From Anaerolineae bacterium (GTDB lineage Bacteria > Chloroflexota > Anaerolineae > Promineifilales > Promineifilaceae): a stretch of 64,000 bases of DNA. The position numbers and the translations under genes are program-made. The notes beneath the pieces are model-generated. The model did no database searches, had not been told where the DNA came from, and saw nothing but the letters and a program-made list of their open reading frames with translations. The stretch spans positions 62,001 to 126,000 of the forward strand of contig JAMLHW010000006.1 in the NCBI GenBank assembly GCA_023954475.1. Reading direction: 5' to 3'. Of the stretch, positions 51,203 through 63,629 are shown piece by piece. Numbering within the stretch: the stretch's first letter is position 1; each line of letters starts with the position of its first letter.

Positions 51203-52159
51203 ATGGATTACATCACCTGGCTGCGCAGCAAACTCGGTTCACAAAAAATCATTCTGGTATACAGCGACATCATATTGCGCGATGAAGCCGGTCGTATTTT
51301 GTTGCAACTGCGCGTCGATAACGGTCTGTGGGGTCTCACCGGCGGCATACTGGAAATTGGTGAGTCCTGGGAGCAATGCGCTCGCCGTGAGTTAGCTGAA
51401 GAAACGGGTTTAGTCGCGGGGCCGCTGCAACTGGTCGGCATTTATACCGACCCGCGCTACGATAGCGTGTATCCCAATGGGGATGCCGTGCAGCAATTCA
51501 CGGTCTGTTTTATGGCACAGGCGGCAGGCGGTGTGATGCAAGCGGATTCGGCCGAATCGCACGCATTGCGCTGGTTTGATCCCGACAGGTTACCCCGTTC
51601 TCAAATGGATCTCTTTTATACGACGATGATCGATGCCATGTTGGCCGGAGCGCCGCCTGTTTTTCTGCCGCCATCCCACAATGGCACCTTGCGCGAATAT
51701 TACGCCATTGCCCGCCGTTTTGTCGGGCATGAGACGCTGATTTTGCCGGGGGCAATGGTTATTGTCGAACGTGCCGACGGTCGCATTTTGCTCATTCGGC
51801 GTAGTGACATCGGTGAGTGGTGGCCGCCGTCCGGATACACGATGCTCGGCGAAAATGTGGCTAATACAGCAGTGCGCGAGGTTTGGGAAGAGGCTGGCTT
51901 ACGCATCGACGTGGACCGCATTATCGGCATCTATTCTGAGCCGTACCACGTTTTTCCCAATGGGGATCAAGTGCAAAATGCCGGCATACTGTTTCGTGCG
52001 CATCCGCTTTCGGCCGAATTGCAGCCCAATTCGGCCGAAGTGAGCGATGTTGGCTGGTTCACGCGCGATGAATGGCTCCAAAAGGCTGTCGAATATCCAT
52101 TTGGGAGACTGGCTCGACTCGCCACAGACCATCTCGACCAAGGAGTGTTCATCGCATGA
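51203..52159 (+). CDS. tandem NUDIX hydrolase
   Basis: 318 residues made of two complete NUDIX domains. First Nudix box: GGILEIGESWEQCARRELAE followed by ETGL. Second: GYTMLGENVANTAVREVWEE followed by AGL. Both keep G-x5-E-x7-RE-x2-EE-x-G. Each hydrolyses a nucleoside diphosphate linked to another group; the actual substrate is unknown. The domains are similar and probably arose by duplication. The stop overlaps the start of the potassium channel gene (ATGA), giving translational coupling. Confidence 0.9.
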   Translation: MDYITWLRSKLGSQKIILVYSDIILRDEAGRILLQLRVDNGLWGLTGGILEIGESWEQCARRELAEETGLVAGPLQLVGIYTDPRYDSVYPNGDAVQQFTVCFMAQAAGGVMQADSAESHALRWFDPDRLPRSQMDLFYTTMIDAMLAGAPPVFLPPSHNGTLREYYAIARRFVGHETLILPGAMVIVERADGRILLIRRSDIGEWWPPSGYTMLGENVANTAVREVWEEAGLRIDVDRIIGIYSEPYHVFPNGDQVQNAGILFRAHPLSAELQPNSAEVSDVGWFTRDEWLQKAVEYPFGRLARLATDHLDQGVFIA

Positions 52160-53154
52160 ATAACCGCATTCTGCGTTTGATTATCGGTGTCGGCACGCTA
52201 CTTGCAATTAGCGTCATTGGCTACATGCTTATCGAGAACTGGACATTCCTCGATGCACTATACATGACTGCCATTACTCTCAGCACCGTTGGCTTTGGTG
52301 AAATCCATCCGCTGAGCGACGTTGGCAGGATATTTACGGTCTTGATCGTGCTCGCAGGCGTCGGCATCATCGCTTACAGTGCCAGTTTGTTCACTTCATA
52401 TCTGTTCGAAGCCGGATTTGCGGGTAGTTTCAGGAGAAGACGGATGGAAAGACAATTACAATCCCTAGAAAATCACGTTATCGTCGTCGGCTATGGTCGG
52501 GTTGGGCGCAAGGCCGCGCAGGCGTTATTGGGCGAGGATCGTTACGCGGTAGTTGTTGTAGATGAAGATCAGGAAACTGTGGAACAGGCAAATTCAGAAG
52601 GGTTTCTGGCATTCCAGCTCGATGCGACCCGGGATGAAGCATTGTATGCGGCAGGTATCGAGCGTGCCAAAGGGATTCTGGTTTGTTCTGGCAGTGATGC
52701 GACCAACCTGTTCGTGGTCTTGTCGGCACGCGAGTTAAATCCGGGACTGCGCATTGTTGTGCGCTGCAGCGATCAGACGAGTGAGACTAAGATGCTTCGT
52801 GCGGGGGCAAACAGTGTCGTATTGCCGCACACGATTGGCGGTGTGCGCATGGCAAATTCGCTAATGAAGCCCAAGGTGACGGAGGTGCTGGACGTGGTTT
52901 CGGCCGATAGCGGTGTCCATTTTGTCATCGAAGAGGCCTCGATTCGCGCCGATTCCGAACTGACCGGACAGACAGTGGGTGAGGCCGATTTGCGTCGGCG
53001 TGCCGGCGTTACTCTGATTGCCATTGTGCGGGCCAGCGGCGAAGTCGACCTCGACATCAGTAGCAGCACGCGCATCAACATGGGTGATCAGTTAATCGTG
53101 ATGGGCATGCGTGACAGCATTCGCCGTTTTGAAGCTATTGCCGGCACAATTTGA
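52156..53154 (+). CDS. potassium channel with RCK (TrkA-N/C) domain
   Basis: 332 residues from the ATG at 52156 (AAGGAG upstream, 4-bp overlap with the NUDIX gene). Two membrane helices flank a pore loop whose filter reads TLSTVGFGE (TVGFG). The cytoplasmic part has a Rossmann TrkA-N domain (HVIVVGYGRVGRKAAQALLG, VVVVDEDQETVEQANSE) and a TrkA-C domain (LTGQTVGEADLRRRAGVTLI). The architecture matches MthK-like channels gated by Ca2+, NAD or nucleotides. Fusion in one operon with a NUDIX hydrolase suggests nucleotide-linked gating (inference). Confidence 0.92.
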   Translation: MNNRILRLIIGVGTLLAISVIGYMLIENWTFLDALYMTAITLSTVGFGEIHPLSDVGRIFTVLIVLAGVGIIAYSASLFTSYLFEAGFAGSFRRRRMERQLQSLENHVIVVGYGRVGRKAAQALLGEDRYAVVVVDEDQETVEQANSEGFLAFQLDATRDEALYAAGIERAKGILVCSGSDATNLFVVLSARELNPGLRIVVRCSDQTSETKMLRAGANSVVLPHTIGGVRMANSLMKPKVTEVLDVVSADSGVHFVIEEASIRADSELTGQTVGEADLRRRAGVTLIAIVRASGEVDLDISSSTRINMGDQLIVMGMRDSIRRFEAIAGTI

Positions 53155-53163
53155 GCGTTTCTG

Positions 53164-55329
53164 CTACGGTAGGCGGAAGCGCAGCGCCGGATCGCCAAGC
53201 AAGTTAAATGTGTGAATGACTTCCGCCAGTGATGGATCATCGGCCGAAGCTTGTTTAGCTGCCATCAACGCCTCGCCTAGTGTGACCGTTTCTCCAGATA
53301 GTAGATCTTTGTAAAACTCATCTGACAACGGTTCTTGCTGATCGGGCAAAGACCGCCCAGACGGTGCAATGGCGGCAACAATGCCACCGTCTTCTGCCCA
53401 GAGCAAGGCTTCAGCCAGTGCATCGTCAATGGGGTGGTTGAAATAGCCGTTGAGACAGGTGAATGTCGTGAAAATCGGCAGGCGTTTGATGTTGATCAAC
53501 GTCTCCGCATCACTGGCCTGGAACACTTTTTCGTCACCCCAGACTCGAACACTGCCATGCCCGATATAATTGATGAGACCGACGCCGTTGTTTATAGCAC
53601 CCATGATGGCATCGCGAATGTCCTCATTTTCGGTCATATACAATTTCTGGACTTCATATCCGCCGTTGTCAAGTGCGTCGGCCAGCCGGTTGGAAGCGAG
53701 ATCGAAATGGGGTTCGTCGTCAGAGACGAGCAATGCATGTCTCTGCCACTCTTCGGGGGCGCTAGTTTCATAGGCGATTGTTTTCTCGACCATTGTGTTC
53801 AACTGTTCAATATTTTGCGCGGGAAATCGGCCGATGGCGATTTGGGGTTCCAGCGAATCATCCTCAAAGATACCGAACAATGTATCGCTGGCGACATGAC
53901 CGGCAAATGTCGTGTAAACCAAAAATGTCGGCAACAGATTGGCGTTCTGGCCATTTTCAAAGTCATAGACATCGTACGTTGCATCTCCAACCAGCAATGC
54001 AAAACGAGGCGGCAGCTTCCAATTGCCGTATGCATAGGCGAGGAAATCACGCAGCGCCTGTGGCGTTTGGCGTCCAAATCCAAATTCATCAAATACCTGC
54101 TGTGCCGAAACCACCATTGTCGTCGCTCCCTGGCCTTCGCGATGCGCAATAAGCGGCTGCAAAGCCTCTTCAAAGCCGGTAACATCAGCGACGATAGCGA
54201 TGTAGTCTGCTGTATTGTCCGGTGAGCGCAATGTGCGTTCCCATTGCGGCGCGACAGTCATGGGGATATGATGGGCGCTGTCTGGCTCTAAAGCAATGTA
54301 TTGGCTGCCCACACCGCTTCCCAGAAACGTGACACTGTCATCGCCGTACTCCAGATCTGTTAACAAGATTGGTCGATCAGGCTCGGTGATGTCAAATACG
54401 AGTGCTTCTTCACTGGAATTAAGAATAGAAATATTGTTATTCAGGACGCTCGATGCGGGGTGACTGAAGTGCAGTTGTTCATCGTTGAGAGCGAGGTTGC
54501 TCTCATACTCGAGATCGATCCAGTCGATGTAGATGGCTTCTCCTGCTGCGCCTGTATCACCGGGGGCGGACAAAACTATCGTGTTGGTGCCTTTGCGCAA
54601 TATGTTTTTAGGGATATCGCCGTTGATCGTTTCAGATTTGATGCCGTCCCAGGTTTGGTCGGCCAGCAGATGCCCGTTGAGCGTGACGATCAAATGGTGA
54701 TCCGGGTTGGGTGGTGCGGCATTGTTCGACCACACATGAACGGTCAGTTTGCCTTCACTTGCGACGGGGTCCAGATCATTGATTGTGATCGGAAATTCAG
54801 TCGGCGCAAAGATGCGCGGTCCCAACCAAACATCGTCATTGGTGGCCTGTGCGAGAAAATTTTCATTTTGCTCCCAGTGGTAAATTTGCTTGCCAATTGG
54901 TGTCCCTTCAGCCGTGGGTGCGGCATCGCTTGTATTCATGGCCATGCCGGTTCCTGGAGCTAACCAGTAAACGACTGGGGCATCGAGTGTGTTTGTCATT
55001 ACCTGGGCGTAGAAATACAAGGCGCCTTCTTCTAAATCGCCAACTACGTGGAATGGAACGGGTTCTCCGTTGCGGGTTAGGGAGAGGGTATCGGCCGATA
55101 AATCTGTAACCGGCAGTAATGCCTGGCGAATCTGTTCGGCCGAAACGGATGCGATCCCGTTGTTCATAACCGTAAGGCGCAACGCCGCCGACTCTGAACC
55201 ACCGGGAAGTGGTTCTAACATAGATGCTTCCGAATTTACATCCGGCTCACCACGGAGGGTGTAGAAAGCGGCCGCCAGAAAGCCGACTGTGAGCAGAGAT
55301 AGCGCGGTAATAACAATTGTTCTACGCAT
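53164..55329 (-). CDS. gingipain-like C25 cysteine peptidase
   Basis: 721 residues with an N-terminal signal/anchor (TIVITALSLLTVGFLAAAFY). The C25 domain is in the second half: YIAIVADVTGFEEALQPLIA, then VFDEFGFGRQTPQALRDFLA and RFALLVGDATYDVYDF. The catalytic His is in LINYIGHGSVRVWG and the Cys in FTTFTCLNGYFNHP. The end ATFNLLGDPALRFRLP-type motif (NLLGDPALRF) is standard. Upstream is a beta-sandwich propeptide-like region. Family members are secreted proteases cutting after Arg or Lys. It is the last gene of the minus-strand locus starting at 63.6 kb. Confidence 0.88.
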   Translation of the reverse strand: MRRTIVITALSLLTVGFLAAAFYTLRGEPDVNSEASMLEPLPGGSESAALRLTVMNNGIASVSAEQIRQALLPVTDLSADTLSLTRNGEPVPFHVVGDLEEGALYFYAQVMTNTLDAPVVYWLAPGTGMAMNTSDAAPTAEGTPIGKQIYHWEQNENFLAQATNDDVWLGPRIFAPTEFPITINDLDPVASEGKLTVHVWSNNAAPPNPDHHLIVTLNGHLLADQTWDGIKSETINGDIPKNILRKGTNTIVLSAPGDTGAAGEAIYIDWIDLEYESNLALNDEQLHFSHPASSVLNNNISILNSSEEALVFDITEPDRPILLTDLEYGDDSVTFLGSGVGSQYIALEPDSAHHIPMTVAPQWERTLRSPDNTADYIAIVADVTGFEEALQPLIAHREGQGATTMVVSAQQVFDEFGFGRQTPQALRDFLAYAYGNWKLPPRFALLVGDATYDVYDFENGQNANLLPTFLVYTTFAGHVASDTLFGIFEDDSLEPQIAIGRFPAQNIEQLNTMVEKTIAYETSAPEEWQRHALLVSDDEPHFDLASNRLADALDNGGYEVQKLYMTENEDIRDAIMGAINNGVGLINYIGHGSVRVWGDEKVFQASDAETLINIKRLPIFTTFTCLNGYFNHPIDDALAEALLWAEDGGIVAAIAPSGRSLPDQQEPLSDEFYKDLLSGETVTLGEALMAAKQASADDPSLAEVIHTFNLLGDPALRFRLP

Positions 55330-55350
55330 AATGTTCAGACTGTTGCCCTC

Positions 55351-55390
55351 GCTTGTACAACGTCACATGCTTTTTTAGCGTTGTACAAGC
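55351..55390. repeat. 12-bp inverted repeat between Fn3-like and C25 genes
   Basis: GCTTGTACAACG (55351-55362) and CGTTGTACAAGC (55379-55390) are perfect complements with a 16-nt loop. Each arm also contains the palindrome TTGTACAA. There is no T run after it on either strand. It could be an operator or an mRNA processing/stabilising stem separating the C25 gene. Confidence 0.6.
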
Positions 55391-55407
55391 TATCAGCGCG
55401 GATGAAG

Positions 55408-56442
55408 TTAAGCTTGACGCCGTCGCAGTAAAAGCAGAACTAAGGCTGCAATGGCGAGCAAGACGATGACAAAGACAAACGCCGATCCCATGATCAGGGC
55501 GGTGCGTGTTGATGATGAAGGTTGTGTGTCGCTGCTGGATGTGGTTGTCGCCACGTCGGATGTTAAGTTCGGGTTTGCTACGCGTTGACCTATAATCCGT
55601 GCATCTGCCTCTGCACTACTATCGGCCGAAGCAATGGCTTGCGCAGAGTTGTCCGTATCGGCCGAACCCAGAACTGTGGGTTCGGACAGCGACTCGGCTG
55701 CAACACCGGCACTGTCGTCCACACCGGCATCCGCCGGATACGCGTCGTCAAGGCCTGTCTCTTCAACCGGCGCTGGTTCAGGCGCTGTAGAGTCTTCCGG
55801 TGGGGTGGTTGATGAGTCATTATCAGCACCGCTATCAGCGCCAGTGGCGGCTAAAGTTGCCGCCGGTTCCGGCGTTGCTGTCGCATTCGGTGTTGCCGCG
55901 GACTGCGTTGGTGTTGCTGTTGCTGAGGCGGCTGGAGTCGCGGTTGCCGTTGCTGTTTGTGTAGCTGTTGCAGCTGTTGCGGGTGTTGCTGTCGGTAAGC
56001 CAATCTCCTCGTTGAGTACCAGCGAGGCCGCTTCTGGTCCTTTATGGAAAACTTCTGTTCCGGTAGAAGCGATGATCTCGGATAAATAGTAGTAGTAAGT
56101 TTTCTCTTGCTCGACATCGTCGTCCACAAGCTGATAATCGGCCGGTGAGGTGCCGCCGGTCGGCGCGATCAAACCGATATTGACCGTTTCGGCATCAAAC
56201 GGATCTTCTTGCATGTCTGCGAGTGTGTATTCAGTTTCGCTGCGCCAGACGTTGAAGCCCAATGTGTCGAGTTCTGTTTCCGTATGCCACGCCAGCACGA
56301 TCTCGTCTTCGGTTCCGGCCGCCGTGAAGTTAGTCACAACGACGTTAGCCAGCGTATGCGGCGCTAACAGAAGTAAAGCGATTGCGTTGGCAGCCAGAAC
56401 GAGACCGATGATGCGGAAAAGTTGTCGACGATTGTGTTTCAT
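55408..56442 (-). CDS. Fn3-like anchored surface protein with Thr/Ala linker
   Basis: 344 residues. Signal peptide (IIGLVLAANAIALLLLAPHT), then an Fn3-like domain with HTETELDTLGFNVWRSETE and KTYYYYLSEIIASTG. A long Ala/Thr/Pro and Ser/Asp/Glu-rich stalk (about 150-305) follows, and a C-terminal helix (SAFVFVIVLLAIAALVLLLL) ending RRRQA, a membrane-anchor tail reminiscent of sorted surface proteins. The Fn3-like motif recurs in the 141-residue protein at 63204-63629, at the start of the locus. It is 14 bp upstream of the S26 gene's stop. Probably a wall-spanning adaptor; function unknown. Confidence 0.8.
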   Translation of the reverse strand: MKHNRRQLFRIIGLVLAANAIALLLLAPHTLANVVVTNFTAAGTEDEIVLAWHTETELDTLGFNVWRSETEYTLADMQEDPFDAETVNIGLIAPTGGTSPADYQLVDDDVEQEKTYYYYLSEIIASTGTEVFHKGPEAASLVLNEEIGLPTATPATAATATQTATATATPAASATATPTQSAATPNATATPEPAATLAATGADSGADNDSSTTPPEDSTAPEPAPVEETGLDDAYPADAGVDDSAGVAAESLSEPTVLGSADTDNSAQAIASADSSAEADARIIGQRVANPNLTSDVATTTSSSDTQPSSSTRTALIMGSAFVFVIVLLAIAALVLLLLRRRQA

Positions 56443-56456
56443 AGAAAGTCCTCTGC

Positions 56457-57146
56457 TTATGATTGTCTGCTCGGTTTAGTTACGGTTGCGAGTCGTGCGG
56501 CGACGGCGACGACGAGATGTGTCCAGATTGCCAATCCTAGGTGCACGCCACGTGCATAGTAACGTGCCAGTTTTTGGGGATGTCGGGTTGCTGTAATGAG
56601 TCGCTTTTCGGCCGAATCCCACTCATCCCGCGTGCGAAAACCTGAATCGCCACACAATCGCTCTTCGGCCGTTGCAACAAATGCCAGGTGCCGATTGAGA
56701 TAGCTACCGACACCTGTTTCAAATGCCAGGATGTGATGAGCGCGTTTACGACTCGTGACGCGTCCAACCAATGCCGTTGCCGGCCATAACGGATCAAAAC
56801 GGATAGAACGGTCACCGCGGGTTATCAACATCAAGCCGTCTGTATTTGGCACCACACCGCGATAACGATGCGTGACAAAGCTGTCATGAGCCTGTAACAG
56901 AATGATGTCACCGGGTTCAAGCTTTGATGCAAGACAGTTCGTGACGGAAATGGTGTCGCCTCTGCGCAGCAACGGCGCCATGCTGTTGCTGATAACGGTG
57001 ATGTGTGGTGTTTTACCGTCATGCAACCCGGAACGGATGATCGCGGTGACTGTGGCGATATCGGGTTTTTCGGCCGAATCGTCCAGATAGCTGTTTTCAT
57101 CAATCCCGTTGCTTTTTGTCGTCAAAACTGATTCCACGGTTGTCAC
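56457..57146 (-). CDS. S26 signal peptidase-like protein, ER/archaeal type
   Basis: 229 residues from a weakly supported GTG. The catalytic Ser lies in VISNSMAPLLRRGDTISV (SM-P-L..GD), and the general base position reads FVTHRYRGV, His instead of the bacterial Lys, as in Sec11/archaeal enzymes. GLMLITRGDRS gives the conserved GD.. region. A C-terminal hydrophobic helix (HLGLAIWTHLVVAVAARLAT) could anchor it. It sits between a C25 peptidase (19 bp) and an Fn3-like surface protein (14 bp) on the same strand, so it may process secreted products of this locus. Confidence 0.78.
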   Translation of the reverse strand: MTTVESVLTTKSNGIDENSYLDDSAEKPDIATVTAIIRSGLHDGKTPHITVISNSMAPLLRRGDTISVTNCLASKLEPGDIILLQAHDSFVTHRYRGVVPNTDGLMLITRGDRSIRFDPLWPATALVGRVTSRKRAHHILAFETGVGSYLNRHLAFVATAEERLCGDSGFRTRDEWDSAEKRLITATRHPQKLARYYARGVHLGLAIWTHLVVAVAARLATVTKPSRQS

Positions 57147-57165
57147 AGGTTGGGTCGTACGAAGC

Positions 57166-60100
57166 CTATGGATTCATAATGGTCGGCAAGTTGATGAATG
57201 CCGAAGGTCGCCACAAATTCAGTTGCAGCGACGGATCACCAATCAACATGAAGGTGTCATGCAAATCTTGTGTGGTAGCTGGCCCCTGTGCTGCAAGATT
57301 GAGTTTTGCCTCATAGATTGCTTCGCCCAGTGTGGCCACATGATCAGTAAACAGCGCATCGTAATATCCTGCAATCAGAAAATCATGCCCCGTCTGCACC
57401 TGCAGACCGGTCGGTGCATACCCAGCAACAGCCCCACCACCACTTTTCTTGACCAGTGCTTCAGATAATCCATTGCTACTTGTATCGCCCAGATCAAAGC
57501 GATGGGTTTGCCCTTCAAGGCAGGTCATCGGCAGCATGATGGGCAGTTTGCCCGCATTGTCCAGTAACGGCACATCGGGAACCTGGAAGTAGTTTTCATG
57601 ACCCCAGTTTGTGATGCCGGAATGTCCGGTGTAAATGATATGTTGAGCGCCACTGCGGAAGGCGTTGATGACTTCGTTTTTGAACGTTGTTACGGTGCGT
57701 TCGTAATACGGCTTTGTCTCAGGATAGCAGGTCAGGGGAGCGTAGTAGATTTTTTGTGCCTGCTGACCCTGTGCAAGTTTCTCACTGACAAACGTATCGA
57801 CCGTGTTGTGAAAATCTCCGGCACCATCCGTCTCACAGTCTGGTGTTAACCTGTAGTTGTCGGTGGCGAAGACGTGGTTGCTTTGCCATGATGCAGCCGG
57901 AGCGTCTTCGTATGTCAGTATTTTTTGCACCATGACGCTCATTTCGGCCGAATTGGAGGCCGGCAGTCGCCCTAGCAAGAAGAAAGGCAGATTGTTTTCA
58001 GGTGCGTCGCCGGAACTCTCGAACGCCACGTACTGGTTATCAGCTGCCGCTTCACCGATGTAGGTATCGATGCCTGAACGCAAGTAAACGGGGACGAGAT
58101 TGCGCCCGGCGTTTAGCCCCATGACATCGCGATGGTCATAGCTGGAATCGCCGGCGAGCAGAACGTAATCGCGATCACCGCCCCAGTTTTCGTAGACATA
58201 TTGCAGAAAGTCGCGGATTGCCTGCGTGCTGTAGCGTCCGTAGCCAAATTCGTCAAAGATGTCTTGCACGTAGACAACGGCGACATCCATTCCCTGATTG
58301 GTACGGCGATTGACGAGGGGCGTCATTGCGCTATCCAGCGACGGATCCGTGATGATGATCATATCGGCCGAATTGCTCGTCGCCCGCAAATCAGATGCAC
58401 TGTCTTTCTCTACCTGCAGCGTACTGTTGTCTGTATTGCGTAGACCGGAAAGCGTCGCCATTTCAAAACGCGTCGATACCAGGTTGGCGCGTTCAAACTC
58501 GCCATCGATGACACCGGTGATTTGCTCAGGTGCAAGCGAATCGGTCACGTCAAAGACAAGTGGATTGGTGGTAAAGCTGGCAGAATCGGCTTGATAGCGC
58601 CACGTGCCTGATGCAGATTGCTCAAATGCCAGACGATCATCTTTTGCAACCAATTCGCGCGGCAGGTCGATGTGAATCCAGTTGAGAATCATGGTATGCA
58701 AACCACCGCTGATACCGCTTTCGTTATCGAGCAGGCGAACTGTTACGGAGTTTGATCCTTCCTCCAGCAACGAAGAGTCAAAATCGGCCGAAAATAAATG
58801 CTTCCCACTCTCATTCAGAGCACTGCCGGTAAATGTCGCAATTGAACCGACCATTGTGCCATTGATCTCAACCTGATAGCGATGGTCATCATTCGCACGA
58901 AAGCCCCATACTTCCACTTCGATATGCGCCGTGCCACTGTCGATATCAGAGACGGTAAACGTTTTGCTGATACTGCATGTCGCACAACCGTTTGTCGCAT
59001 TGTAGGAAAGCGGCACGTAGTCGCCCGCGACGAGCGGTCCGTCGAACCAGTGATCGTAAGCATCAGACGGATCATTTAACGGAAAGTTGGTGTAGTAAAG
59101 CGTGTCGCGTTCAATTTGCACCGGGTGATCATACACATCGACAACGGTCGCACTCGCCGGGGTGCCGTCTGCCGTTGCCATAACCAATGTGCTGCCGCTG
59201 CCATACGTCAACCAATACGCATTCGTCTCTATATCGTGGGTTTTGATCGCTTCGCCATAAAAAATAATGCGGTCGGTGGCGTTGAGCGTGCCGTTGCTGT
59301 TGACATCGTCTACTTTGATGTGTATTTCGCTGTCTTCGTAACACATGCGCAGTGAGTTTACAGATGGTTGTGCGCCGAGGTCGCTGCCGTAAATGACATA
59401 CATGCCGGTTTCAGACAGGGTAATGCGGTGGGCATTGCTGCGCAGCGTACTGTTGGCCAGGCACGGCGACGCCGGAGGGATTGTCTGTGGTGCCTGATAC
59501 GGTGTGCGCCAATTCGCGCCGGATTCGAAATTGAGTACTGTGTTGCGCAGCAGGTTTGTGAACGTGTCGCTTTCGGAACGCATCGTTGATGGTGTGCGTT
59601 TGCCGTCAGGATAATCAAACTGAATGGATACCGTGATCTGGGAATGGACGCGAGCTTGTCGTGTGGCGTTGTTAACTTGGACTGGATGCAGTTGCACCGG
59701 TACTAGCGTGTAGTCGCGCAGTTTGACCGGTTCGCCCAACGTTACCGGTTCGGCCGAAATCCAGCGGTCAGCCGCGTACACAGCCCGATTAAAGCGATCC
59801 GTTGCCGTAAAGGTGGGCGTGGCGTTGGGATCGTCGAAATCGTATGCTGCCAGCGTTTGAGTTGTAACCGGCGCGGCGATCACGTCTTGCAGGGTAGTGG
59901 TTTCGGCCGAAATCGAGCCCAACACCGGCACAGCACCGGGGGGCACGGCGATCCAGAAACTGGTCACGGGCAAATCAGGTGCGCCTGGGTCGCCGCTGTT
60001 GCTATAGCCGTCGATAAGCAGCTTTTCGGCCGATTGCCCATCGATCATGGTTGCTATACGTTGCAGAGGGGGAACATCGACTATAAATTCAACGGCTTGA

Positions 60101-60273
60101 TCGGAACTCGTAACCAGCGCAATGTCGGGTATGGGGCTGGTCAGAGAAGGGGTTTCTGCTGCTGCACCGGGTAGTCGGACTGTTGTCGCGACAAGGGCAA
60201 CGACACCAAACAGCAGTAAACCAAGTAAGGCCTGTGTTGAAGGGCCTTGCTTGCGGTTGCGGAAAAAGTGCAT
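57166..60273 (-). CDS. large gingipain-like C25 cysteine peptidase
   Basis: 1035 residues from the ATG at 60273 (AGGAG upstream). Signal segment TQALLGLLLFGVVALVATTV. The first about 500 residues form beta domains (propeptide and a metal-binding-like module, DVNSNGTLNATDRIIFYGEA). The C25 domain follows: IITDPSLDSAMTPLVNRRTN, DYVLLAGDSSYDHRD, His in IIYTGHSGITNWG, Cys in LPMTCLEGQTHRFD, and the end FMLIGDPSLQLNLW. It is the gene directly after the RiPP precursor and could be its leader peptidase or a target of the system (inference). Confidence 0.88.
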   Translation of the reverse strand: MHFFRNRKQGPSTQALLGLLLFGVVALVATTVRLPGAAAETPSLTSPIPDIALVTSSDQAVEFIVDVPPLQRIATMIDGQSAEKLLIDGYSNSGDPGAPDLPVTSFWIAVPPGAVPVLGSISAETTTLQDVIAAPVTTQTLAAYDFDDPNATPTFTATDRFNRAVYAADRWISAEPVTLGEPVKLRDYTLVPVQLHPVQVNNATRQARVHSQITVSIQFDYPDGKRTPSTMRSESDTFTNLLRNTVLNFESGANWRTPYQAPQTIPPASPCLANSTLRSNAHRITLSETGMYVIYGSDLGAQPSVNSLRMCYEDSEIHIKVDDVNSNGTLNATDRIIFYGEAIKTHDIETNAYWLTYGSGSTLVMATADGTPASATVVDVYDHPVQIERDTLYYTNFPLNDPSDAYDHWFDGPLVAGDYVPLSYNATNGCATCSISKTFTVSDIDSGTAHIEVEVWGFRANDDHRYQVEINGTMVGSIATFTGSALNESGKHLFSADFDSSLLEEGSNSVTVRLLDNESGISGGLHTMILNWIHIDLPRELVAKDDRLAFEQSASGTWRYQADSASFTTNPLVFDVTDSLAPEQITGVIDGEFERANLVSTRFEMATLSGLRNTDNSTLQVEKDSASDLRATSNSADMIIITDPSLDSAMTPLVNRRTNQGMDVAVVYVQDIFDEFGYGRYSTQAIRDFLQYVYENWGGDRDYVLLAGDSSYDHRDVMGLNAGRNLVPVYLRSGIDTYIGEAAADNQYVAFESSGDAPENNLPFFLLGRLPASNSAEMSVMVQKILTYEDAPAASWQSNHVFATDNYRLTPDCETDGAGDFHNTVDTFVSEKLAQGQQAQKIYYAPLTCYPETKPYYERTVTTFKNEVINAFRSGAQHIIYTGHSGITNWGHENYFQVPDVPLLDNAGKLPIMLPMTCLEGQTHRFDLGDTSSNGLSEALVKKSGGGAVAGYAPTGLQVQTGHDFLIAGYYDALFTDHVATLGEAIYEAKLNLAAQGPATTQDLHDTFMLIGDPSLQLNLWRPSAFINLPTIMNP

Positions 60274-60726
60274 GGAAAGCTCCTGAACGGCATAACACTG
60301 CTGCATGACAAGTCAGATTGAAGGTACTGAATCGCGATGCAAGCAGGTCGAGTTGGGCAGAAATTATTGGCTTTGAACCCGGTAATGTATCACTAGAAAT
60401 CAAAACCAGATCGGGCACGACTGCGTTACCCGATGTGTCTTTCTGCGACGGCGCGTATTGTACCGTAGCGTTACTGTCATTAAACCATAGCTAATCGCCA
60501 AGTTATGGCTTTTAAGCATATGCTAATTGGCTTGTCACGAGTCTCTCACGCTTTGATAGTCGGCCGAAAATGTCACGGAGACAACAAGAACTTTGTCCCG
60601 ATTTCGGCCGAATGGGATGCAATATTTCCTATGTGGTTGGCGGAAAACTATGTGCAATCTCGAATCGGCATGCATGCCGATAGAGAAAGGTCGTGTTACC
60701 CCGTAACGTGCCTTCAGGCCAAAAAA
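60274..60726 (-). other. intergenic region between precursor and C25 gene
   Basis: No convincing coding sequence on either strand. It holds two TCGGCCGA octamers (60560, 60603), a perfect 18-bp palindrome (60664-60681) and a GTTAC-CCC-GTAAC dyad (60695-60707), both just downstream of the precursor gene. These may form an attenuator or operator setting a different expression level for the peptide and the peptidase. Confidence 0.5.
60664..60707. repeat. two adjacent dyads downstream of precursor gene
   Basis: ATCGGCATGCATGCCGAT (60664-60681) is a perfect 18-bp palindrome; GTTAC CCC GTAAC (60695-60707) is a 5-bp stem with a 3-nt loop. Neither is followed by a clear T run, so they are either operators or mRNA 3'-end structures. 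Confidence 0.5.
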
Positions 60727-60885
60727 CTAGCTCATCAGAAATGCAGAGCAACCGGAATCTTCTTTGCCACCGATGTTTGTGTCACAAACGCCGGCAACTG
60801 CTTCAAGCGTTTGACGATGGATGACGGCCGGCTTTTCGTAAGGCTTTTTTTCGTTCTTGGGCTGGGGTGCAGCTTGCTGGTTCAT
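60727..60885 (-). CDS. RiPP precursor peptide
   Basis: A 52-residue peptide starting MNQQAAPQPK, with AGGAG 7 bp before the ATG. The leader has KKPYEKPAV: a Y-x-x-P element typical of leader peptides bound by PqqD-like recognition domains. It is followed by TLEAVAGVC. The C-terminal part has Cys34 and Cys46 flanking DTNIGGKEDSG and ends SAFLMS. The two Cys are the probable sites of radical-SAM thioether or related chemistry. The gene has its own consensus promoter (60945-60916) and lies between the radical SAM maturase and a C25 peptidase. The product class is not known. Confidence 0.75.
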   Translation of the reverse strand: MNQQAAPQPKNEKKPYEKPAVIHRQTLEAVAGVCDTNIGGKEDSGCSAFLMS

Positions 60886-60915
60886 TGAAGCTCCTGACGA
60901 TTGGTTGATACTGTG

Positions 60916-60945
60916 ATTATAGGGATGAGAAAGGGGAAGTGTCAA
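60916..60945 (-). promoter_or_regulatory. consensus sigma-70 promoter of RiPP precursor
   Basis: On the minus strand TTGACA (60945-60940), 18 bp, TATAAT (60921-60916), both perfect consensus. It predicts a start near 60909 and a leader of about 24 nt containing the AGGAG ribosome-binding site. It is the best promoter in the window and implies high expression of the peptide relative to the maturase. Confidence 0.85.
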
Positions 60946-61027
60946 TGCAGTGTGACTAGACTCATTAAGTTGTCATGCGTCCCTTGCTTGTCAAACAGAG
61001 CGCTTTGCATTGCAGTTTTCTGCACGA

Positions 61028-62098
61028 CTAATCGGCCGAAACCATATTCCCATGGTACGCCATTCGGCGCAAACGTGCTTCACGGTACGCAATCGACGAG
61101 CAGCCAAGCAGATCGCCGTCTTCAAACGCCGCAGCGCCGTGACAACGAACGCAAAACGGCTGCAATTCACACGTCGCACACACGGGCAACGCACCCAATG
61201 TCAACGATGCTGTTTCCTGCCACACGGGCGAATTGTGCCAGATATCGGCCAGTGACTGTCTGCGGATGTTGCCGGCATAGACACGCGCACCGACGCAAGT
61301 ATAAATGTCACCCAATGGCCCAATGGTCATACCGTTCATGCCGATACCGCAAAACCGAAAGTGATCGTCGGACGGCGGTATATTCCAGGTTTCCGGCGTG
61401 ACGGTGCGGCGCATGAATGCCAGCCACTCGTCATCCTGCGGGCGGTGACGCAATGGCGATGGATCGCCGGTGTGTTTCGAAACGACGGTGGGATCGTAAG
61501 CAAAGCGGATGCCGTATTGGGCAGCGATGGCACGTAAACCGTCGAGATCGTGAATATTTTCGCGCATCAACGGCGTCTTGATCATGCAGCGCACACCGCG
61601 TTCGGTGAGCAAGTCGATGGCTCGTAACGTGAGCGCATGTGACCCGGGAATTTGGGTAATGGTGTCATGGACTGCCGGGTCGGCGCTATACAGGCTGACT
61701 TCGACCAGGATCGGCCTGGTTGCAGCAATCTGATCGGCTAACTCCGGCTTGACCATGATGCCGTTGGTGTAGTAGCGAATGGCAAAGCCGCGTGCGCGGG
61801 CGTAGTCGACGATGTCAAACAGGTCGCTGCGCAAGAATACTTCGCCGCCGGAAAATGTGATGGTGAGTGCGCCGAGTTCGGCAATTTGATCGACCAGATC
61901 GCAGGCTTCCTGTGTGCTCAATTCGCCAGGCACACGTGCACCCGGCGGCAGCACATCCAGATAGCAGTGGGTACAGCGTTCGTTGCAGCGATAGGTCAAC
62001 TCCCAATGAACAGAGAACAGGCGGTGACGCTTTTGCGTGTTTTGCACGATGCGGTCGTAGGCGTTGATTTCAGGCGCGGCGATGTACTGATCAGACAT
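61028..62098 (-). CDS. radical SAM/SPASM peptide maturase
   Basis: 356 residues. Radical SAM motif ELTYRCNERCTHCYLDVLPP (CX3CX2C, Cys38/42/45), then TITFSGGEVFLRSDLFDIVD (the GGE SAM-binding motif). The C-terminal SPASM region carries extra Cys: FCGIGMNGMTIGPLGDIYTC, LPVCATCELQPFCVRCHGAA and GCSSIA, enough for auxiliary Fe-S clusters. Such proteins modify RiPP precursors by C-S, C-C or C-O bond formation. It starts 1 bp after the PqqD stop, so it is translationally linked, and is followed by the precursor. Confidence 0.92.
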   Translation of the reverse strand: MSDQYIAAPEINAYDRIVQNTQKRHRLFSVHWELTYRCNERCTHCYLDVLPPGARVPGELSTQEACDLVDQIAELGALTITFSGGEVFLRSDLFDIVDYARARGFAIRYYTNGIMVKPELADQIAATRPILVEVSLYSADPAVHDTITQIPGSHALTLRAIDLLTERGVRCMIKTPLMRENIHDLDGLRAIAAQYGIRFAYDPTVVSKHTGDPSPLRHRPQDDEWLAFMRRTVTPETWNIPPSDDHFRFCGIGMNGMTIGPLGDIYTCVGARVYAGNIRRQSLADIWHNSPVWQETASLTLGALPVCATCELQPFCVRCHGAAAFEDGDLLGCSSIAYREARLRRMAYHGNMVSAD

Positions 62099-62099
62099 A

Positions 62100-62390
62100 T
62101 TATTGTGCTGTTTCGGCCGAAAAAACTAACACGTTTTGCGCGACCATGCTTTCTACAAACGATGTCACATCCTGCTCGGCAACTGTGGCTGAAACATCAA
62201 ATTCGTCGATGATACATTCCGTAATTTGAGCCACCGTATGATGACCGTCCGACAACTCAAAAATGCGTGCGCCGACACTATTGAGCACCGTCACTTCACC
62301 GACATCGGTCAGGATAAGAACAGCTTCGTCGTCAATGACGCGCCCGGCTGTCTGCGGGTGTGGTTGAGGGCTGAGATGCGAGATACTCAT
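62100..62390 (-). CDS. PqqD-like RiPP recognition protein
   Basis: 96 residues from the ATG at 62390, which follows a TTGGAG ribosome-binding site and overlaps the HPr-kinase-like gene by 59 bp. PqqD pattern: VLILTDVGEVTVLNSVGARI then FELSDGHHTVAQITECIIDE (the G.HTV..I element) and VEQDVTSFVESMVAQNVLVF-like last helix. Family members form a winged-helix that binds the leader peptide and presents it to the radical SAM enzyme. The frame could start 24 nt earlier. Confidence 0.85.
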   Translation of the reverse strand: MSISHLSPQPHPQTAGRVIDDEAVLILTDVGEVTVLNSVGARIFELSDGHHTVAQITECIIDEFDVSATVAEQDVTSFVESMVAQNVLVFSAETAQ

Positions 62391-63195
62391 CGATAACGCT
62401 CCAAAAGGTATCAACTTGACGGAAAGCTAGCGCCGCGGTGGGCACAGCGGCTACCAGTAAGGCGGCAATGTTCAGAATGCCAAGTCCGGTCTGTGGCGTG
62501 GCATTGGCAAACGGTGTGGCTGCTGCAAGTGCAGCTAGTGCCTTCGCTGGAGAAAGCGGCATAATGCTGTGTTCATGTGCCTGTTGTAGTCGGAACATTG
62601 CCCTCAGTGGGACTGACTCGTTGCGGTGCGATCCGATGGCGAAGCTACCGCGAAACGGGACGCCGTGCAAGCGGAACCCGTTGTGGTGGCGTCGTACCAA
62701 AACCAGATCATCGCTGAAAACAGTGGTATGTAGCAGCGACAAGTGCGCAATTGTGCTTTTGCCCGCTCCGCTGGGACCAAAGAAAACATAGCCCAAACCT
62801 CCACGCACGATACCGGCAGCGTGAAGCAGGAGAGCGTCGTGTTTGAGACATAGCACGGCGTAGGCGACGCGGAGAAAGTTCTCAATATCGGCGTTGGGGG
62901 CTATTTCGAGATGGCTGCAATTCCGGGCGAGGTCAATCGTGCCGCGTTCGGTGTACGATGTGAAAGTCAGTTCAGATTGGCGCACCTGAATGTCGATGTC
63001 GAGGAAGGATCCGGGTAAGGGACGATTGAACTGCACACCCGGTTTGGTCGTGATAGTGATATTGAGGAGTGGTGCTTCGGCCGAATCGATGCTGAACCCG
63101 GCATATTGCGCCCGTAACCGCTGCGCGAGGGCATGATCTTCCGTGTGTAGCGCTACCTTGAGTCCGGCGATATCGATGGAAACAGTGTCACTCAT
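62332..63195 (-). CDS. HPr-kinase-like P-loop protein
   Basis: 287 residues. An N-terminal beta-rich half (residues 1-115) is followed by HDALLLHAAGIVRGGLGYVF and the P-loop FFGPSGAGKSTIAHL (140-148), as in HPr kinase/phosphatase C-terminal domains. TVFSDDLVLVRRHHNGFRLHG continues the HprK pattern (S-D-D). Such truncated HprK-like proteins recur next to PqqD and radical SAM genes in RiPP loci. They may phosphorylate or otherwise modify the peptide or act in regulation. No HPr or PTS gene is near. Confidence 0.82.
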   Translation of the reverse strand: MSDTVSIDIAGLKVALHTEDHALAQRLRAQYAGFSIDSAEAPLLNITITTKPGVQFNRPLPGSFLDIDIQVRQSELTFTSYTERGTIDLARNCSHLEIAPNADIENFLRVAYAVLCLKHDALLLHAAGIVRGGLGYVFFGPSGAGKSTIAHLSLLHTTVFSDDLVLVRRHHNGFRLHGVPFRGSFAIGSHRNESVPLRAMFRLQQAHEHSIMPLSPAKALAALAAATPFANATPQTGLGILNIAALLVAAVPTAALAFRQVDTFWSVIDEYLASQPSTTPADSRARH

Positions 63196-63203
63196 CAGGA
63201 TCG

Positions 63204-63629
63204 TTAGCGGGCAGTTAGTTCGATAGGGCCTTCAAATTCGCTGTTGCCTTCGCGTCCGACCGTTTCCAACTGATAGAAGTAAGTCACACCACGTTGAACG
63301 TTCGTGTCTTTGAATTCATGTTCACTACTGCGGGTGGGATCGTTGTTGGCCGGGATCAGGGTATCGGTAATCTTGACGTATTCGCCATCGGCCGATTCGG
63401 CACGATAGAGATTATAGCCAATTGTGTCCAGCTCATTCTCCGTCGTCCATTTGATCGTCAGGCTGGGTGGTTGAAAAAACAGAACATAGATCGTTGCTGC
63501 GATCAGAATAAGGGCAACGGCGCTAAACAGCACGGTGCCGATTGTCCAACGGCGTGTTGAAGCTGCTTTGATACCTGGTTCTTGGCTACTGTTGTCGTTT
63601 GTTGCTGTGTTGGAGTCGAGCATATTCAT
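63204..63629 (-). CDS. membrane-anchored Fn3-like protein
   Basis: 141 residues: a short cytoplasmic N-terminus, one transmembrane helix (TIGTVLFSAVALILIAATIYVLFF, about 29-52), and an outer Fn3-like domain with IKWTTENELDTIGYNLYRAE and VTYFYQLETVGREGNSEFEG. The ENELDTIGYNLYRAE motif matches TELDTLGFNVWRSE in the larger protein at 55408-56442, tying the ends of the locus together. It begins the probable operon and stops 8 bp before the HPr-kinase-like gene. Function unknown. Confidence 0.75.
   Translation of the reverse strand: MNMLDSNTATNDNSSQEPGIKAASTRRWTIGTVLFSAVALILIAATIYVLFFQPPSLTIKWTTENELDTIGYNLYRAESADGEYVKITDTLIPANNDPTRSSEHEFKDTNVQRGVTYFYQLETVGREGNSEFEGPIELTAR

Follow-up and report, generated by a model that had tools for sequence, protein, structure and literature searches.

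A probable LPP-like RiPP precursor with a predicted radical SAM step in a conserved cassette of Chloroflexota and other bacteria

A minus-strand frame of 52 residues in the 64,000-bp stretch of an Anaerolineae contig analysed here (the window) raises the question whether so short a frame is a gene and, if so, what its neighbours make of the product. Its translation, MNQQAAPQPKNEKKPYEKPAVIHRQTLEAVAGVCDTNIGGKEDSGCSAFLMS*, contains Y16-E-K-P19, Cys34, Lys41, Cys46 and a C-terminal Ser52, confirming the two-cysteine frame of the preliminary description. Clear homologues (E 5.6e-9 to 1.1e-6) were found in related genomes, several of them in the same position next to the same neighbour genes, hence the frame is not a chance open reading frame. 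Such a frame might be suspected from its shortness and from the Pfam and NCBIfam scans, which matched no family model, but with sequence, position and motif conserved in many genomes the probability is negligible. The frame is almost certainly a RiPP precursor.

The ATG with its ribosome-binding site is the credible start; the TTG at 60945 of a 72-residue version, implied by coordinates, falls within the -35 box. The AGGAG and the TTGACA-18-TATAAT pair reported earlier are both present upstream. The pattern TTGACA-N15..19-TATAAT has one match in 64 kb (60945..60916) and none in 100 dinucleotide-preserving shuffles, and a local promoter scan returned it as the sole 12/12 site. A perfect promoter as a family trait was rejected after comparison with 18 relatives. 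In 17 of these the precursor overlaps the maturase gene or starts at most 110 bp from it, and promoter-like sites are mostly absent; L060 has a gap of 1.2 kb between precursor and maturase gene. A site clearly above the shuffles was seen in L068 alone, where it overlaps the ribosome-binding site of the precursor. The strong promoter is thus a local feature. The claim that the peptide is made in large excess over its maturase is narrowed to the organism of the window, for which excess expression is a plausible guess. Downstream of the precursor, a local scan revealed no terminator-like site, and the RNA fold, considered as terminator or attenuator, was nothing special (z = -0.42). The following 420 bp or so up to the first C25 peptidase gene (60307-60726) contain no convincing gene; the matching place in the related clusters L177, L214 and L215 is taken by an exported-protein gene.

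Thirty-four distinct precursor sequences, the window's own included, were assembled from profile matches and, for the most distant ones, from short frames read beside a radical SAM gene; since the set was partly picked by motif and position, its counts are somewhat biased towards the motif. The sequences originate from Chloroflexota, Acidobacteriota, Nitrospirota, Verrucomicrobiota, Bdellovibrionota and one deltaproteobacterium. In all 34 the leader motif [Y/W]xxP is present and the core has two or more cysteines, in agreement with the preliminary description, which had made its reading depend on these two traits. Most of the family adjoins both PqqD and radical SAM genes. The first Cys follows the Tyr at a distance of 18 residues in 29 of the 34 precursors. 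Between the first and the second Cys, 31 have a Lys, mostly as GK. In 32 the last Cys is 5-7 residues away from the C-terminal end, and the C-terminal residue is Ser in 29 and another residue in five. Two low-scoring matches (L042, L043) look like chance frames. In a class-wide sample of 396 genomes, the precursor was detected in 15 at E <= 1e-10, and close relatives of the radical SAM enzyme gave about 20 matches at E <= 1e-119. Most precursors are neighboured by genes for an HprK-like kinase, a PqqD-type RRE protein, a soluble protease resembling signal peptidases and a radical SAM/SPASM enzyme. Secreted C25 peptidases of the gingipain/PorU family and FN3 surface proteins are encoded next to many of them as well. 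Almost every two-Cys locus has the radical SAM/SPASM gene directly beside the precursor, and the radical SAM tree did not resolve all of these loci as one clade. With members in at least six bacterial phyla, the family forms a branch of such peptides that has apparently not been described so far.

In the window, the precursor is the fifth of nine minus-strand genes (Table 1), in the order FN3, HprK-like kinase, PqqD, radical SAM/SPASM, precursor, C25a, SpI, FN3b and C25b. The cassette is flanked upstream by obgE (L098:2161-3498; the DUF1967/Obg extension was matched in the window) and on the other side by a convergent potassium-channel-like gene. The order is repeated in L032, L033 and L036, as far as the contigs extend in L034, L035 and L040, and, according to a GTDB scan, in many further genomes. 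Outside Chloroflexota, the core cassette is also present in Acidobacteriota, Nitrospirota, Verrucomicrobiota, Bdellovibrionota and a deltaproteobacterium. The C-termini of the C25a peptidases (57166-57200 in the window, and relatives) carry short motifs such as IYLPIVLK, IYLPLILR or FINLPTIMNP, possibly another sorting tail, and the C25 peptidase of the deltaproteobacterial cluster (L069:5941-9111) has a MYXO-CTERM-like end with CAGC, a membrane segment and RRRR.

Table 1. Features of the cassette and its surroundings in the window, and tailed exported proteins beside precursors (given as locus:positions)
Feature	Position	Strand	Basis
-35 box TTGACA	60940..60945	-	sole perfect pair in window; not conserved among relatives
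-10 box TATAAT, 18-nt spacer from -35	60916..60921	-	pattern search of window
Ribosome-binding site AGGAG, 4 nt 5' of ATG	60890..60894	-	sequence
Precursor peptide, 52 aa, leader with RRE motif Y16-E-K-P19	60727..60885	-	translation, homologues
Core peptide GVCDTNIGGKEDSGCSAFLMS (residues 32-52) expected from a leader cut after A31 (AVA|G)	60730..60792	-	LppA register, homologues
FN3-domain membrane protein (lipoprotein-like in several relatives)	63204..63629	-	domain search, relatives
HprK/PEPCK-fold kinase	62332..63195	-	profile search, motif, AlphaFold model
PqqD-family RRE protein (true start probably an ATG few codons inside)	62100..62414	-	PF05402 2e-14
Radical SAM/SPASM maturase, CNERCTHC and SPASM Cys set	61028..62098	-	profile search, motif
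Secreted C25 peptidase a (C25a), PorU/gingipain family, 1046 aa	57166..60306	-	PF01364 1.5e-75
Signal-peptidase-I-like soluble serine peptidase (SpI), candidate leader peptidase	56457..57146	-	profile, S55/H93/D118, model
FN3 surface protein (FN3b), C-terminal transmembrane segment and RRRQA	55408..56442	-	relatives, sequence
Secreted C25 peptidase b (C25b), 721 aa	53164..55329	-	PF01364 1.2e-84
Potassium-channel-like gene	52072-53154	convergent to cassette	named from sequence alone
Tailed exported proteins beside maturase-distant precursors	L037:8482-9633, L039:272-1519, L178:9461-10801, L210:6322-8535		
Tailed exported proteins beside in-cluster precursors	L214:7563-9059, L215:7317-8711, L177:10799-12304		

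The preliminary description had recognised the precursor, a status that stands, but had not noticed the HprK-like kinase, the SpI-like peptidase, the C25 and FN3 genes or the near-invariance of the C-terminal Ser. With these the reading shifts to a phosphorylated RiPP similar to the linear polyphosphorylated peptides (LPPs; Popov et al. 2026, PMC13381572), a class reported to be confined to Bacillota. In LPP systems the RRE binds YxxPxVLxHQxIxFETxxS, the kinase places several phosphates on Ser3, and a SpI-like peptidase cleaves after T(-1), with the Tyr at -16 (PMC13381572). The cassette shares with them a discrete PqqD-like RRE together with the YxxP leader, an HprK-like kinase with the essential residues H/G/G/G/K/DD and a SpI-like peptidase with S/H/D. 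The kinase keeps H125, G140, G143, G145, K146, S147, D162 and D163 at about the spacing of the BsfK motif tested by mutation (H148, G163, G166, G168, K169, S170, D186, D187; PMC10368454). A PDB sequence search with the kinase gave no useful match, therefore the fold was checked with an AlphaFold model (pLDDT 92.3), whose Foldseek matches were PEP carboxykinases (PEPCK) and HPr kinases (HprK). The SpI-like peptidase has no N-terminal membrane helix and keeps S55, H93 and D118, spaced approximately as S29/H68/D93 of LppS (PMC13381572); its model matches signal peptidases and LexA.

The LPP leader motif aligns in register with YEKPAVIHRQTLEAVAGVC. Read as YEKPAVIHRQTLEAVA|GVC, the precursor has its Tyr at -16 and Cys34 where LPPs have Ser3; positions -3 and -1 hold small residues, and cleavage would fall before core residue 1 as in LPPs. 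The predicted cut after A31 follows from the register with LppA (PMC13381572) and from the homologues, in which small residues precede the first Cys. Several differences set the cassette apart. LPP systems are without a radical SAM/SPASM enzyme, they carry the phosphorylated core Ser3 (ETxxS) where the window and nearly all homologues have a Cys, and they occur in Bacillota, not in Chloroflexota and the other phyla of this family. The cassette adds C25 peptidases and FN3 proteins to the LPP set and is devoid of the NTP transferase and MsbA-like exporter of LPP clusters: neither an NTP transferase nor an ABC/MsbA-like or other dedicated exporter was found among the genes of 53164..63629 or just upstream. 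Some related clusters have an NTP transferase and an ABC exporter.

Phosphorylation of a terminal residue is known from lasso peptides. In paeninodin-type clusters, the kinase target is a conserved Ser at the C-terminus (PMC9266682). The kinase of the Bsf system (PMC10368454) acts on Ser3, as do those of LPP systems. Both lasso types resemble the window in a discrete RRE that reads a leader motif and in the essential kinase residues, the paeninodin type also in the combination of a kinase with intact motif and a conserved C-terminal Ser. They differ in a macrolactam cyclase and a B2 protease; the cassette genes include neither an asparagine-synthetase-like cyclase nor a B2 protease, and a radical SAM enzyme is present instead.

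We therefore arrive at a maturation scheme whose order of steps is presumed. The frame, its conservation, the cassette and the catalytic motifs were observed directly; RRE binding, phosphorylation and leader cleavage are deduced from homology at the level of motifs, and the radical SAM product and the role of the C25 peptidases are conjectural. The PqqD-type RRE would bind the leader motif Y16-EKP19 and present the peptide. The radical SAM/SPASM enzyme would modify the two-Cys core, most likely by a Cys-based crosslink; Cys-directed radical chemistry is likely, with Cys34 and Cys46 as its probable targets. The HprK/PEPCK-fold kinase would phosphorylate a Ser, most likely Ser52, because a Cys replaces Ser3 and nearly all homologues retain the C-terminal Ser; we lean towards this assignment with some reserve, as kinase and terminal Ser are not strictly coupled. 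A strict coupling is ruled out by the five of 34 precursors lacking the terminal Ser and by sister clusters described below. The soluble SpI-like Ser-His-Asp protease would cut the leader after AVA (AVA|GVC) and yield GVCDTNIGGKEDSGCSAFLMS, a role that is fairly likely. Both secreted C25 peptidases, together with the FN3 surface proteins, might act outside the cell on or with the product. Taken as a whole, an LPP-like, kinase-tailored and SpI-processed RiPP precursor with a radical SAM step, matured by the surrounding cassette, has a probability of roughly 0.7. If correct, it extends the LPP logic from Bacillota to no fewer than six other phyla and brings radical SAM chemistry to peptides that are tailored by a kinase and cut by a signal-peptidase-like enzyme; we found this combination in no paper or family model. 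In open-licence papers on RiPPs, radical SAM enzymes, PqqD and HPr kinase, on SynChlorMet and on gingipains or Chloroflexi, the cassette was not described. Four enzymes with predicted substrate residues are each open to separate testing.

An ordinary thioether RiPP of the sactipeptide or ranthipeptide type, in which the HprK-like protein phosphorylates another target or has a regulatory role, would explain part of the observations. The maturases of these peptides, such as SkfB, are likewise radical SAM/SPASM enzymes acting on a Cys-bearing core (at least two Cys in 34/34 precursors, two of them invariant), and the radical SAM enzyme of the window is related in NCBIfam profiles to mycofactocin, NirJ and StsB-type sactipeptide maturases, with PqqE and SkfB as nearest solved structures and 5wgg as a further PDB relative. 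Unlike those systems, the cassette has a kinase, a SpI-like leader peptidase and C25 peptidases, and a thioether is here only putative. Kinase, RRE and SpI-like peptidase occur together repeatedly across phyla, their motifs match those of enzymes with demonstrated precursor phosphorylation and cleavage (PMC13381572, PMC10368454), and the terminal Ser is near-invariant, all of which makes the thioether explanation unlikely.

A different role for the C25 peptidases is suggested by exported proteins. In one related family, precursors distant from a maturase adjoin genes of exported proteins with a PTAVTLSSFxA-like end followed by a membrane segment or a short basic tail; further examples lie within clusters (Table 1). 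Such tail genes are few per genome, 7 in G093 and 6 in G344 (E <= 1e-4), as detected with a profile that was built from six exported proteins near precursors and is biased accordingly. The tailed neighbours at L210, L214, L215 and L172 were found after the profile had been built. This suggests that peptide and tailed protein work together, perhaps via the C25 (PorU-family) peptidases. The latter could function as sortases in the manner of PorU and attach the modified peptide to the tailed proteins or anchor these with it. Precursors adjoin PTAVTLSSF-like-tail genes in G093, G344, G204 and G169, some far from any maturase; a RAGSP-type precursor (L172) also lies beside a tailed exported protein; and the T9SS sortase PorU itself belongs to C25 (NF033707 1.6e-73, below cut-off). 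On the other hand, no tail protein is situated beside the window's own precursor, the detection bias applies, and transpeptidation by these C25 members is only putative; they may be plain proteases. Sortase function is consequently doubtful, and equally speculative is a radical-SAM-modified phosphopeptide, made from scattered precursors, that serves as partner or anchor of exported proteins and is joined to them by C25 outside the cell. It would be a RiPP serving protein sorting, neither antibiotic nor cofactor. The frequent link to C25 and exported proteins offers an approach to the biological role of phosphorylated RiPPs.

It is very improbable that the peptide is a mere building block of a small redox cofactor or pigment, comparable to PQQ or mycofactocin, with no peptide product. 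The mycofactocin maturase gave the best maturase score, PqqE matches too and a PqqD is present, but the scores are far below the family cut-offs (mycofact_rSAM 148.8 vs 265 bits, PQQ 83.5 vs 381.35 bits), and the inter-Cys segment is 8 to 17 residues long, whereas a cofactor core would be fixed. The SynChlorMet cassette (ScmC, ScmD, ScmE, ScmF; NCBIfam) resembles the window in combining HprK-like, PqqD-like and radical SAM/SPASM genes; here as well the scores were far below the equivalog cut-offs (ScmD 45 vs 100, ScmC 40.5 vs 125, ScmE 103 vs 400 bits).

Sister clusters (L166, L167, L168, L169, L170) encode radical SAM, PqqD, HprK, SpI, C25 and FN3 proteins, though not every gene at each locus. 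Their precursors follow the pattern WxEPxI...LEVHADGPP (LEVxADGPP)..., have a single Cys near the end and lack a terminal Ser, thus the kinase does not need a terminal Ser in all systems. Lasso-like precursors with a related leader and the core start LEVRAGSPLG were seen at L045, L123-L134, L172 and L173; L045 has HprK, PqqD and C25 genes and no radical SAM gene. The palindrome TTCGGCCGAA, an over-represented site of the HIP1 kind, occurs at 46 sites in the window versus 0.15 expected (e.g., 60603-60612 and 62112-62121). As TCGGCCGA it is frequent in L046 and almost absent from L049, L050 and L068.
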